This document shows positions 3,600-40,890 of a stretch of DNA of 52,584 nt, one piece after another. The notes beneath the pieces are model-generated. The model worked only from the letters and a program-made list of their open reading frames with translations. It ran no database searches and was not told where the DNA came from. Every line of letters starts with the position of its first letter. The first letter of the stretch is position 1. Made by a program: the position numbers and the translations under genes. Source of the stretch: Bacteroidota bacterium. GTDB taxonomy: Bacteria; Bacteroidota; Bacteroidia; Cytophagales; Cyclobacteriaceae. Location: assembly GCA_003242315.1 (NCBI GenBank), contig QGUY01000002.1, forward strand, positions 1 to 52,584, in the 5' to 3' direction.

Positions 3600-4298
3600 A
3601 TGGTGGAACGGTATAGCATAACCTGCGATGCTGACAGCGTTCGTGCTCGCTTTTCAGTTGACGTTCCTGGCTTTTACAAGCCACACTACAATGCCGCACC
3701 AACGCAGCTTCTTCCCGTAATCACAAATACAAGTCCGCAGGGTGTTTCCCTTTTTTACTGGGGCATACCTCCTTCATGGGCCAAGAATAAGACGGTAAGT
3801 GAAAAGGTGATCAACATGAAATCAGAGGCGTTGAAGGAAAAGCCGTCACTTCGGAAGGAGGTCTTGAAACGCCGATGCCTTATTCCTGCGGATGGATTTT
3901 ATGCCTGGAAACGTTCGGGCAAGAAGACATTGATCCCCTATCGTATTGTTGCTGCCTCAGGAGCGCTGCTCTCTTTCGCCGGTGTCTGGGAAGACTATGA
4001 AGACAACGATGGTGGCGAACAAAGCACGTTCATTTTGCTGACGCGGCCATCGGATGATACGGTGCGATCAATCACCGAGCGAATGCCGGTTATTCTTTCC
4101 CGCGAAACGGAAAAAATCTGGCTGTCCTCAGATGCGGACGAAAGTATACTGCTCAGCGCAATGCACACGCCGTCAGGAGAGCCCCTCAGCGCTTACACGG
4201 TTTCACCGCGGATCAATACGGTCACGGAGGACGTGCCCTCGCTCATCGCCCCTGCTCCTCCTGCAGACCAATTCGGCAATCTTACACTGTTCGACTAG
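3600..4298 (+). CDS. SRAP (YedK/HMCES-like) protein lacking key catalytic residues
   Basis: The 232-residue protein has the SRAP fold pattern: YNAAPTQLLPV (30-40), INMKSEALKEKP (71-82), RRCLIPADGFYAW (91-103) and ERMPVIL (160-166). In YedK and HMCES the catalytic Cys2 links covalently to abasic sites in single-stranded DNA, helped by Asn75, Glu105 and His160 (E. coli numbering). Here the protein begins MVERY, so Cys2 is Val; the Glu of the FEW/YEW motif is A102; the His before the R-x-P motif is T159. Only the Asn (N72) remains. An in-frame stop at 3579 rules out a longer start that would restore the Cys. Fold assignment is firm; loss of crosslinking is inferred. Confidence 0.85.
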   Translation: MVERYSITCDADSVRARFSVDVPGFYKPHYNAAPTQLLPVITNTSPQGVSLFYWGIPPSWAKNKTVSEKVINMKSEALKEKPSLRKEVLKRRCLIPADGFYAWKRSGKKTLIPYRIVAASGALLSFAGVWEDYEDNDGGEQSTFILLTRPSDDTVRSITERMPVILSRETEKIWLSSDADESILLSAMHTPSGEPLSAYTVSPRINTVTEDVPSLIAPAPPADQFGNLTLFD

Positions 4299-5441: not shown

Positions 5442-5546
5442 AATTCACAGAATAATACAGCCATCTAACCTGCTGATAATCAATTTATACTACCATTAAA
5501 CGACGGGACCGTCATTTTAGTGGGCCGACCGCGGAAATAAGGCCGG

Positions 5547-5586
5547 AAATCGCAAATCACTAATCAAAATCACCAATCAAAAATCA
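5547..5586 (-). repeat. GATTnnn heptamer array, copy 1
   Basis: Read on the minus strand, the array starts about 13 bases after the stop of the small membrane gene and runs GATTTTT, GATTGGT, GATTTT, GATTAGT, GATTTGC, GATTTCC: six units with a period of seven and one unit of six. There is no opposing arm, unlike copies 2 and 3. Confidence 0.75.
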
Positions 5587-7915: not shown

Positions 7916-7990
7916 GATTTTTGATTTGAGGGCGCCAAATCGCAAATCAAAAATCAAAAATCAACAATCACTATTCACTAATCTCTAATC
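7916..7990. repeat. GATTnnn heptamer array, copy 2, with inverted arm
   Basis: On the minus strand the array begins inside the last codons of the SDR gene (GAT TAG) and runs GATTAGA, GATTAGT, GAATAGT, GATTGTT, GATTTTT, GATTTTT, GATTTGC, GATTTGG. After a short GC-rich centre an opposing arm follows: GATTTTTGATTTG at 7916-7928 is the exact reverse complement of 7943-7955. The element can form a hairpin between the SDR gene and ispG. Confidence 0.8.
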
Positions 7991-8695
7991 CCTCAGGTCT
8001 CCAAGCTGCGGCCGTATCACCAAATCCTCCACCACCGTCGAAGGCGAGAGGTTGTGAGCAGTGAATACGGCCTCGGCGACGTCACGGGCTGGAATAAACC
8101 GATCCTCGGGATGTCCGGATCCCATCCAGCTGTCCGTCCATGTCGCTCCGGGCATCACTGATGTCACTTTGATTCCGAAAGGTTTTAGTTCCTCACGAAG
8201 GCATCGTGAGAAGCCAAGCAGCGCAAATTTGGAGATGGCGTATGAACCGCCGTTGGGATACGCCGTAAAGCTTGCGATGGAACACATGTTGAAGATATGA
8301 CCGCTTCGCCGATGCTTCATGGTATCGACGATGCCGCGTGTCACGTGGTAAGCGCTGTAAAGGTTTGCGCCGATCATGGTTTCCAAATTGCCATCAGGTT
8401 CTGTGCTGAGGTCGCCGGGCACGAACAGTCCGGCATTGTTCACCAGCACGTCTATGGGCCGCTGGAATGACAACGCAAAGCGTGCGAACTCCTGAGCTTG
8501 GGTTTTATCCGACAAGTCAGCCGAATGAATGTGTACACTTACGCTGAATTCCTTTTCAAGGTCTGACTTCAGTGCTTCGAGGTCATGCATTTTTCTCGCG
8601 CATGCGACGATGTCGAATCCCGCCGACGCGAACTTTTGGGCGATGGCGCGCCCTATCCCCCGGCTGGCCCCGGTCACCGCTATGAGTTTGCTCAT
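7985..8695 (-). CDS. Short-chain dehydrogenase/reductase
   Basis: 236 residues with all classical SDR motifs: the nucleotide-binding TGASRGIG (8-15), NNAG (86-89), N111, and the catalytic S139, Y152 and K156 (YAISK). The motif TGASRGIG with ACARK at the end of strand 2 suggests NADP(H). It is a cytosolic oxidoreductase; many relatives are annotated as 3-oxoacyl-ACP reductase-like, but the substrate cannot be told. The final codons and stop (GAT TAG) coincide with the first unit of a heptamer array. Its start is divergent from mlaE with 66 bases between them. Confidence 0.88.
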   Translation of the reverse strand: MSKLIAVTGASRGIGRAIAQKFASAGFDIVACARKMHDLEALKSDLEKEFSVSVHIHSADLSDKTQAQEFARFALSFQRPIDVLVNNAGLFVPGDLSTEPDGNLETMIGANLYSAYHVTRGIVDTMKHRRSGHIFNMCSIASFTAYPNGGSYAISKFALLGFSRCLREELKPFGIKVTSVMPGATWTDSWMGSGHPEDRFIPARDVAEAVFTAHNLSPSTVVEDLVIRPQLGDLRD

Positions 8696-37949: not shown

Positions 37950-37979
37950 TTGTTTAAACACGCATTTTCATTACTTTAG
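37950..37979 (+). promoter_or_regulatory. Promoter of the yceI gene
   Basis: TTG at 37950-37952, a 19-base spacer and TACTTTAG at 37972-37979 (one mismatch to TAnnTTTG). Transcription would start near 37986, about 20 bases before the ATG. Confidence 0.6.
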
Positions 37980-38630: not shown

Positions 38631-39089
38631 ATGAAGATCGAAGACGAAATCAAACAGAAAGCCTTCCACAGCGTCCACCATAAGGCGGTGGTGAACCTCA
38701 TCTATACTTCTAACTGGCTGCTCGGCGCCCAACAAAAATTTCTTTCCCTTTTCGGTATCACGACACAGCAGTTCAACATCCTCCGCATCCTGCGTGGCCA
38801 GCATCCCAATGGCGTTTCTGCTACTACGATCAAATCGCGCATGCTCGACAGGAACTCCGACGTCTCGCGACTGCTCAACCGGCTCGTCAAAAAGGAGTTG
38901 ATCGTCAAGAAATCATGTCCGTCGGACAAACGCGCGACCGACATCTTCATCACTGAGCGCGGACTCCAGGTCCTCGACGAAATCAACAAGGAACGCCACA
39001 GAATCGACAACGTGCTTTGCCTTACTGATGCTGAAGCAGAGCTGCTAAGTGATTTGCTGGATAAGGCACGAGGAGGAAAGGATTTTTGA
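38631..39089 (+). CDS. MarR family transcriptional regulator
   Basis: 152 residues with the MarR winged helix: FGITTQQFNILRILRG (41-56), then SATTIKSRMLDRNSDVSRLL (64-83, the recognition helix region) and the wing KKSCPSDKRATDIFITERG. C95 near the wing could be redox-sensitive, which is a guess. MarR genes are often paired with yceI in Bacteroidetes and may control it. The last two codons and stop (GAT TTT TGA) are the first unit of a heptamer array. Confidence 0.87.
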   Translation: MKIEDEIKQKAFHSVHHKAVVNLIYTSNWLLGAQQKFLSLFGITTQQFNILRILRGQHPNGVSATTIKSRMLDRNSDVSRLLNRLVKKELIVKKSCPSDKRATDIFITERGLQVLDEINKERHRIDNVLCLTDAEAELLSDLLDKARGGKDF

Positions 39090-39177
39090 TTTGTGATTTG
39101 TGATTTTCGATTTGAGGTGGACCCAGCGGTCAAGCACAAATCACAAATCAAAAATCAAAAATCACTAATCACAAATC
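39081..39177. repeat. GATTnnn heptamer array, copy 3, inverted pair shared by two gene ends
   Basis: The left arm on the plus strand: GATTTTT, GATTTGT, GATTTGT, GATTTTC, GATTTG (39081-39114). The right arm on the minus strand: GATTTGT, GATTAGT, GATTTTT, GATTTTT, GATTTGT, GATTTGT (39177-39136). Between them is a 21-base GC-richer centre. The arms contain the stop codons of the MarR gene (plus) and the M3 peptidase gene (minus), so both coding regions end inside the repeat. The pair can also form a long hairpin. Confidence 0.85.
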
Positions 39178-40890
39178 GTCCAGTTCCTCCCTCACAAAAT
39201 CCATCAACTCTCTTATGTACTCCCTGCTAAAATCAAAGCGTATCCCCGCGGCGGCGTATACCTCGGGAATACTTTTCATGTACCCCAGTGCAAGCGCCCT
39301 GCGATAGCCTGCAAGTCCCTCTTCCCTGTTGCGGCGGAAGTTGCGCCATACGGCGATCGCTCCGAGTTGCGCCATGCCGTATTCAATGTAATAGAAAGGC
39401 ACCTCGTAAAGGTGGAGTTGCTTTTGCCAGAGGTAGTCGCGTTCCTTTTCCAGTCCGCTCCAGTCGGTAACGCGGTCTGAAAATCTCCCGAAGATCTCAT
39501 TCCAGGCAGCACGGCGTTCCTCCAGCGAGTGCGTCGGATGCTCATATATCCAATGCTGAAACTGGTCGATCGTTGCCACCCAGGGAAGCGTTTCAATGAT
39601 GTCTTCAAGGTGCTCGCGACGGGCGCGTTTCAATTCAGCCTCATCTTCGAAGAAGACATCCCAATGATCCATTGACAACAGTTCCATCGACATCGAGGCA
39701 AGTTCAGCCACCTCTGAAGGGGTCGACTTGAAATCGTTCAGTTCAAGTTCTCGTGTAAGGAAATTGTGTATCGCATGTCCACCCTCGTGCATGATGGTAA
39801 CCATGTCACGCAACGTAGAGGTGGCATTCATGAAGATGAAGGGAACCCCAATTTCCGCGAGGGGATAATTGTACCCGCCTGGCGCCTTTCCCTTTCTGGA
39901 CTCAAGGTCGAGGTGACCCATTTGTCGCATGATGGCCAGGCAATCTCCTAAATAAGGATCGAGACGCCTGAACACTTCGATCGTCTTCTCGGTAAGTTCC
40001 TCGCCACTCCCAAAGGGTTTAAGTGGCGGACGAAGCTCGGGGTCGACGGCTTTGTCCCACGGACGCAGGCTATCGACTTTGAGCGACTCCTTTCTTGCTT
40101 TCGCGAAATCGTCAAGTATGGGCAGCGTTTCGGTCTCGATAGCCTTGTGAAAATCGAAGCAATCCTGCACCGTGTAATCAAAACGACCGAGCGCCTTGAA
40201 CATGTAATCGCGGAAGTTCTTAAACCCGGCGTTGATCGCAACCTGGTGACGCAACTCCACAAGGCGGGTAAAGGAGTCATTCAATGCGTCCTTATCGGCA
40301 AGTCGACGGGCCGCGATCTTCCGAAACACTTCTTCGCGCACCTTGCGGTCGGTCGACATCAGCAGGACACCGGCCTGCTGCAACGTCAACTCCTTGCCGT
40401 CCACCTCAACCGTCATCGCACCGGAGATCTGTCCGTACTTTTGCGTCTCCGTGTTGATTGCCGTAAACAACGGGACGTTTTCCTCCCGGAAGATTTCGAT
40501 CTCCTTCCTGAGGTTGCGAATCATGATATCATATCCCGGTAATTGGGCAACCTCCGACAGGAATGGAGATTCAGCCGCTTTGCGATTAAGTTTATCCGAC
40601 ACCGGGGCAATCTTCGGCTGAATGTTTTCGATGAAATCCTGGTAATGGGTTCGATACTCCTGGTTCTCAGTGTAACATGTCATACGGATGTATCGCCACG
40701 CCAGGTCCTCGGAGATTACGGATTCCAGCTCACTCCTGTCGCGAAACCATTTTTTCAGGTCCTCCGCTGAGGATAGTTCACGTTCGAGGAGGGCATCAAA
40801 ATATGGTTTCAGATCTTCCCAGACCGTTACCTTGAAATCTTCGGGGAGAAACTTGCGCTGAGGGCGCGTGATCTTCTCTGCTGTTTCCAT
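39169..40890 (-). CDS. M3 family oligoendopeptidase (PepF-like)
   Basis: 573 residues. The zinc motif HEGGH (H368, E369, H372) with a third ligand near E396 (VAELASMSMELL) defines gluzincin family M3. It is probably a cytosolic oligopeptidase, since there is no signal peptide. The final codons GAC GAT TTG TGA run into a heptamer array, so its last two residues come from the repeat. A TATTTTTG box at 40928-40921, about 30 bases before the ATG, could be the -7 element; no good -33 box was seen. Confidence 0.9.
   Translation of the reverse strand: METAEKITRPQRKFLPEDFKVTVWEDLKPYFDALLERELSSAEDLKKWFRDRSELESVISEDLAWRYIRMTCYTENQEYRTHYQDFIENIQPKIAPVSDKLNRKAAESPFLSEVAQLPGYDIMIRNLRKEIEIFREENVPLFTAINTETQKYGQISGAMTVEVDGKELTLQQAGVLLMSTDRKVREEVFRKIAARRLADKDALNDSFTRLVELRHQVAINAGFKNFRDYMFKALGRFDYTVQDCFDFHKAIETETLPILDDFAKARKESLKVDSLRPWDKAVDPELRPPLKPFGSGEELTEKTIEVFRRLDPYLGDCLAIMRQMGHLDLESRKGKAPGGYNYPLAEIGVPFIFMNATSTLRDMVTIMHEGGHAIHNFLTRELELNDFKSTPSEVAELASMSMELLSMDHWDVFFEDEAELKRARREHLEDIIETLPWVATIDQFQHWIYEHPTHSLEERRAAWNEIFGRFSDRVTDWSGLEKERDYLWQKQLHLYEVPFYYIEYGMAQLGAIAVWRNFRRNREEGLAGYRRALALGYMKSIPEVYAAAGIRFDFSREYIRELMDFVREELDDL

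Follow-up and report, generated by a model that had tools for sequence, protein, structure and literature searches.

Two facing arrays of seven-base GATTnnn units at positions 39081-39177 of the window, the 52,584-nucleotide stretch of Cytophagales DNA analysed here, contain the stop codons of a MarR-family regulator gene on the plus strand and of an M3-family peptidase gene converging on it from the minus strand. The arrays belong to a family spread through the genome, members of that family are placed preferentially at gene 3' ends, and the C-termini of several proteins are changed where an array meets them. We favor, with a probability of about 60%, the reading that the array belongs to a dispersed, lineage-specific repeat, copies of which are tolerated at gene ends because they carry stops. 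Two parts of this reading are inferences: the movement of elements as copies, and tolerance, as opposed to usefulness, as the reason for their placement.

The MarR-family gene (38631-39089, plus strand, 152 aa, Pfam MarR_2/MarR) ends GGA GGA AAG GAT TTT TGA. Its last residues, G-K-D-F, exceed the usual end of the protein, and the D, the F, and the stop are array sequence. The left arm (39081-39115, plus strand) consists of five GATT units with the variable triplets TTT, TGT, TGT, TTC, and TGA, and provides the MarR stop TGA at 39087-39089. A 20-bp centre without assigned strand (39116-39135) separates it from the facing right arm (39136-39177, minus strand; TGT, AGT, TTT, TTT, TGT, TGT), which supplies the M3 stop. 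The M3 gene (39169-40890, minus strand, 573 aa, Pfam Peptidase_M3) ends GAC GAT TTG TGA within this arm at its ancestral length, with its final two codons and stop now array sequence, and the two stops lie 79 bp apart. The earlier note had read the gene ends as GAT TTT TGA and GAT TTG TGA in the first units of the facing arrays, which the sequence confirms. It had also placed the TGA triplets at 39087, 39094, and 39101 in three different frames and taken all frames to be closed. Both points hold: stops occur in all six frames across the 97 bp, with first-stop offsets of 6, 13, and 20 on the plus strand and 6, 10, and 20 on the minus strand, and no frame stays open for more than 23 nt from either outer edge.

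GATTNNNGATTNNNGATT is matched 12 times in the window as a whole, where 100 shuffles gave 0.02 matches on average, and the window holds two further arrays of the GATTnnn type, near 5545-5585 and 7916-7990. The second element (7916-7990) pairs a short plus-strand arm (7916-7926) with a long minus-strand arm (7935-7990) whose outer unit, GATTAGA, provides the TAG stop of a short-chain dehydrogenase (7985-8695, minus strand, Pfam adh_short). This protein ends LGDLRD, and its last D codon and stop are array sequence. The third array (5545-5585, minus strand) is decayed to two three-unit runs that are out of register, and it sits in a gap of ∼590 bp (own gene calls), at least 236 bp from the nearest outer-side gene end.

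Comparison with relatives shows how these ends have changed. Judged by the nearest named relatives of its M3 peptidase, which are 77-78% identical, the bacterium belongs to the Cytophagales near Chryseolinea and Ohtaekwangia. A MarR gene converges on the M3 gene in 46 relatives, and the distance between the two stops is -4 to +5 bp in 29 of these. The MarR protein ends at residue 148 in 41 of the 46 syntenic orthologues, at 149 in four, and at 150 in one; here it ends at 152, having gained four residues and a stop made by the array. The M3 relatives with a readable stop (79 of 80) end at the same residue as here in 44 cases and are one residue longer in 22. Three further genes with array-internal stops, a dehydrogenase, an exonuclease, and an aminotransferase, were selected for that feature and compared with 29, 25, and 29 relative loci, respectively. 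The dehydrogenase of the window is two residues longer than 26 of its 29 relatives and one longer than the other three. The exonuclease (locus L169) ends VVIFDF, a gain of two residues over 10 of its 25 relatives, among them the two closest, which end VVVF; the others vary. The aminotransferase (L171) is one residue shorter than nine of its 29 relatives, including the five closest (L213-L217), and since the remaining relatives range from -2 to +19 residues, we consider it the weakest case of a replaced stop. Measured against the earlier note's refuting condition, that relatives without the array have the same last codons and stop, the outcome is mixed: C-termini changed in the MarR, dehydrogenase, and exonuclease proteins, whereas M3 has the length of 44 of the 79 relatives, though with last codons and a stop that are array sequence.

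The same junction carries other heptamers elsewhere. In relative L072, ∼14 copies of AATTGTT lie at the junction, and MarR ends VSN followed by a TAA inside the array; in relative L067, three further kinds of short heptamer run are present and the MarR end is native. Judged from these sequences, heptamer arrays of differing units have evidently reached the MarR/M3 junction more than once. In another relative (L139, 4192-4313), ∼15 copies of the 8-mer GTAGAGCA start at the stop of the M3 orthologue.

The source genome, a 4.34-Mb draft in 569 contigs with a completeness of 96.5%, contains 118 three-unit matches (58 + 60), compared to 1 + 3 for the pattern read backwards, and 65 four-unit places. 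Facing pattern matches number 39 and back-to-back matches 2, in a count to which one element can contribute several overlapping matches. Of 291 genomes of the order, only the source genome has the 20-base signature GATTAGTGATTTNTGATTTG, in seven copies. The arrays are head-to-tail 7-bp units beyond chance and are mainly intergenic or at coding ends, as expected of a bacterial heptanucleotide tandem repeat; one array, in L155, is the exception that lies inside a called gene.

The description of the arms draws on 30 further stretches of the genome and covers 272 units, which make up 54 arms in a total of 32 sequences; the element set of 38 entries was drawn from the first ∼100 of the 118 three-unit places, the 65 four-unit places, and one further place, and leaves out C303, C355, C450, and C455. 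By a distance rule, 28 of the 54 arms, about half, are without a facing partner. The commonest units are GATTTGT, GATTTTT, GATTAGT, and similar, and arms most often begin GATTAGT. Counting from the outer edge, AGT is the commonest triplet at places 1 (19/54) and 2 (24/54), TTT or AGT at place 3, and TTT or TGT at place 4, while the inner-edge unit is GATTTGG or GATTTGA in 24 of the 54 arms. No arrangement among 5000 permutations of the 54 arms placed A-type units outermost to the same extent, with or without the last (boundary) unit. Units thus vary within an array yet keep the same outer-to-inner order in unlinked arrays, and because of this shared polar order the copies look related rather than independently grown. 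Some centres point the same way: that of L158 resembles those of L176, L175, and L172 with z scores of 15.0, 10.1, and 8.9 over shuffles, where L176 and L172, whose arm is unpaired, were represented by the bases on its inner side. Most centres are unrelated in sequence: 24 of 703 pairs exceed z 3.5, and some of these are overlapping stretches of one locus. When one centre was searched in the genome, it returned, besides itself, one weak match (23 bp, 91%, E 0.02).

Placement was read against genes called with our own simple caller, plus tRNAs. With a gene 3' end as the outer neighbour, 21 of 29 arms start within 20 nt of it, tRNAs included, whereas with a gene start as the outer neighbour only 4 of 21 do; for inner edges, taken from the unpaired arms, the figure is 1 of 23. 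Without tRNAs the comparison is 19/28 to 4/21 (Fisher p 0.0012), for arms that are partly non-independent, since four belong to element L172 and paired arms share an element. When 28 elements were placed at random, each in its own gap and allowed to reach up to 18 nt into genes, 8.1 were expected near 3' ends, and the 16 observed were reached in one of 4000 simulations; there is no such excess at gene starts, with 3 elements against an expected 5.2. Twelve unpaired arms come within 20 nt of a 3' end, 11 of them in the sense direction and one (L156) antisense. The earlier note's suggestion of an expanding repeat that tolerates landing at gene ends agrees with this non-random placement and with the altered C-termini (MarR +4, dehydrogenase +2, exonuclease +2).

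The stop itself lies inside the arm for 12 of the 28 arms that face a protein-gene 3' end. In 7 of the 19 protein-gene cases within 20 nt it precedes the array, and tRNA-Arg and tRNA-His each have an arm 11 nt from their 3' end. Because arms also adjoin tRNAs and follow native stops, the shared factor is the gene 3' end and not the stop codon, and the supply of stops alone does not explain sense arms in those positions. Convergent gene pairs are not specially favored among the 28 elements with genes on both sides (8 convergent, 14 tandem, 6 divergent). A purine-rich outer flank was considered and set aside as slight (0.59 compared to 0.55 purine, p 0.04).

Heptamer arrays also occur in other genomes of the order, and GATTnnn is just one of several kinds. 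A four-unit GATTnnn match is found in 19 of 58 relatives, and since the reversed control pattern is equally or more frequent in several of them, other kinds of heptamer are about as common. Genome G052 has abundant reversed control patterns (141 + 141; 43 + 56 in a second count), and because they are so common there it has its own heptamer family built on another unit. Facing matches outnumber back-to-back matches by 33 to 0 in G050, 14 to 0 in G038, 8 to 0 in G017, 6 to 0 in G001, and 5 to 0 in both G039 and G056, whereas most relatives have zero to three matches of either kind, a chance-like number. In 10 of 21 relative loci, an array and a gene 3' end are no more than 25 nt apart, as judged with a cruder gene caller on 21 of the 30 loci L031-L060, with most second loci per genome and own-genome loci excluded. 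The preference for the sense direction is less strict in these relatives: 12 array rows are near a gene 3' end, 3 of them antisense, and gene starts have an array nearby in 5 of 28 rows. In 80 loci around M3 genes, period 7 accounts for 10 of 51 tandem arrays and period 14 for another 10, each of ∼two copies; periods 8 and 9 are seen once each.

Taken as a dispersed repeat, the element would be a non-coding repeat of seven-base units, with two facing arms round a short centre or with a single arm, whose copies would have reached many sites by a copying process. We invoke copying because of the shared polar unit order and the few related centres. The relatives compared include none from the same genus, and neither a target duplication nor a mobilizing enzyme came to light, Y1 transposase being the one enzyme family sought. 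Copies would survive mainly at gene 3' ends with GATT in the sense strand, because there the TGA or TAG of the first units terminates the protein no more than a few codons away from the original end, in whichever frame; the sense strand would offer a stop in each frame within ∼21 nt. At MarR/M3, a copy would have landed between or over stops that touch or nearly touch in most syntenic relatives, so that MarR would have lost its own stop; it now ends on an array TGA four residues later, and M3 ends at its old residue, also on an array TGA. Any effect of an RNA hairpin could then be a by-product. Growth in place is a rather unlikely alternative, in which replication slippage would have expanded a chance GATT-rich seed (TGATT) at a stop and gene ends would merely be places where this is not lethal. 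The near-perfect one-unit arrays of relatives (GATTAGT in G056, GATTTAA in G033, and AATTGTT in L072) fit such growth, as do the share of period 7 around M3 genes, tied with period 14, and the over-representation of heptamers in bacteria described in the accessible text of two reports (PMC4692102, PMC4679880). It does not readily account for differing units keeping one order in unlinked arrays, for the great excess of facing over back-to-back pairs, or for the related centres, and on these grounds we prefer copying of a dispersed repeat.

It strikes us as improbable that the arms are under selection to form an RNA hairpin, one that would terminate transcription in both directions or protect mRNA ends at the 3' ends of genes in the manner of REP/BIME. 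The arms do face each other, placement at 3' ends extends to tRNAs, and the MarR/M3 element has a predicted fold of -37 kcal/mol (z -4.7), although any inverted repeat would give the like; elements of the paired form may have a hairpin function. Against selection on a hairpin, no inverted partner (p < 0.05) was found within 130 nt, or up to the contig end, for 21 of 25 unpaired arms, two of these 21 being borderline and two cut by contig ends; the other three of the 28 unpaired arms had less than 60 nt of inward sequence. Arms of the same locus do not match one another significantly better than arms of different loci (mean 21.6 compared to 20.3, p 0.08, 12 pairs), which gives no sign of compensating change, and a simple scan of 38950-39300 with loops of 3-8 found no intrinsic-terminator pattern of a G+C-rich stem followed by a T run. 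Moreover, 29 of the 46 syntenic relatives have no room for such an element between the two genes. An extension of the inverted repeat past the arms, visible as GGAGGAA ... TTCCTCC at MarR/M3, was examined separately and is not general (p 0.27, 12 pairs). We find it hardly credible that the arrays are fail-safe cassettes selected to end translation in every frame. The closure of six frames within 23 nt and the 12 of 28 arms holding the stop would suit that role, but arrays also adjoin tRNA ends and follow native stops, and M3 keeps its ancestral stop position. The earlier note's other option, a dedicated all-frame stop and hairpin, loses ground to the same observations: the missing partners and terminator pattern, the two arms beside tRNAs, which need no stop codon, and the seven native stops that precede an array.

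Among known systems, the tandem heptanucleotides of Calothrix bear the name STRR. Their occurrence there is mentioned in the available portion of PMC4692102, which also describes what is, as far as that text goes, the closest known system, the GGGAATC and GGGGA(C/T)T heptamers of Xanthomonas and Nostoc, present at 186 and 183 places in two Xanthomonas genomes. The Xanthomonas repeats form convergent pairs (70 and 75 cases), are closer to the gene on their 5' side, and adjoin or overlap stop codons in the sense orientation, and they share with the arrays here a seven-base unit with a fixed and a variable part, convergent pairing, and sense-strand closeness to stop codons; paired repeats are few in Nostoc. 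The Xanthomonas and Nostoc heptamers are G-rich, however, and oligonucleotides of them form quadruplexes (PMC4692102), whereas the common GATTnnn units are without runs of three G, with the exception of L172 3596-3630, which has GATTTGGGATT. A polar unit order and a stop replacement shown by orthologues are seen here and were not found in the portion describing the GGGAATC repeats. The same source cites van Belkum et al. for the heptanucleotide GTGATTA of Helicobacter pylori; a tandem array of it reads identically to one of the GATTAGT units found at the outer edges here. The available text of PMC4679880 describes TAACTGA direct repeats from Beggiatoaceae, Cyanobacteria, and some Bacteroidetes, whose stops limit any overlap with a coding end to 18 nt. 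Like GATTnnn they are heptamer arrays with stops in forward frames, and some sets lie between stop codons (Microcystis); unlike GATTnnn they have a uniform unit, show one inverted case among 169 sets, and in the main genome lie mostly just upstream of start codons.

REP/BIME elements mobilized by RAYT transposases, as presented in the accessible parts of PMC2817692, resemble the present family in being dispersed short inverted repeats whose inter-arm segments lack homology, but they are not built of heptamers. We rejected this identity: Y1 transposase (PF01797) has no match in the source genome and matches in 5 of 14 control genomes, and a palindrome headed GTAG or GTGG was not encountered, as arms here most often begin GATTAGT. 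With respect to the terminal inverted repeats that copies of a MITE have in common, the arms here are shared and polar, yet 21 of the 25 unpaired arms tested are without a partner. No Rfam match reached the gathering score; the 13 listed for 501 bases, most of them to miRNA hairpins, were disregarded. We found no account of GATTnnn repeats in Cytophagales in the literature searched, which included few subscription papers. Absent from the text of the sources compared are the Cytophagales family itself, the shared polar order, and the orthologue comparison by which native stops are seen to be replaced, in two lineages at one junction.

These arrays provide an example, backed by relatives, of repeats that replace native stop codons and add residues to proteins, and a second lineage shows this at the same MarR/M3 junction with another heptamer. 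Should complete genomes bear out the fixed strand direction at gene 3' ends, strain comparison could test why bacteria prefer seven-base repeats and how these spread. More speculatively, and with a good deal less confidence than we attach to a tolerated dispersed repeat, a single polar process might underlie the heptamer arrays of distant phyla, those of Cytophagales described here and the published ones of Xanthomonas and Nostoc. It would begin at gene 3' ends, keep to one strand direction, and extend away from the gene, repeatedly capturing and rewriting stops. In the present genome its products would also have been copied between sites as facing-arm elements, by machinery other than a known transposase.

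Several other sequences were noted beside the arrays and in the window. An exact palindrome, TGTTTAAACA, lies at 37951-37960 in the gap before the gene preceding MarR; a match is within chance for the whole window (1.27 expected with one mismatch allowed). Similar motifs with a 14-bp period are found on the MarR side in L067, L070, L100, and L103, and the palindrome and these motifs are possibly an operator. An identical 45-bp stretch follows the arm on its inner side at the ends of contigs C153 and C333 (L159:54-98 and L171:3592-3636), perhaps marking the ends of a longer element that the assembly does not cross. The two contigs may be neighbours, but in none of 29 relative loci did the aminotransferase have a C153 gene next to it. 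Degenerate repeats of 8-9 bases (TTCAACAC, CCTATGTG, and similar) adjoin arms in L164 (3450-3536), L168 (3395-3430), and L162. Finally, several heptamer arms have next to them a copy of another dispersed repeat, which is GCTTCGACTTCGCTCAGC-like (L150 ∼3600-3673, L160 ∼3610, L166 ∼3440, L176 ∼1310, and L149 ∼340).
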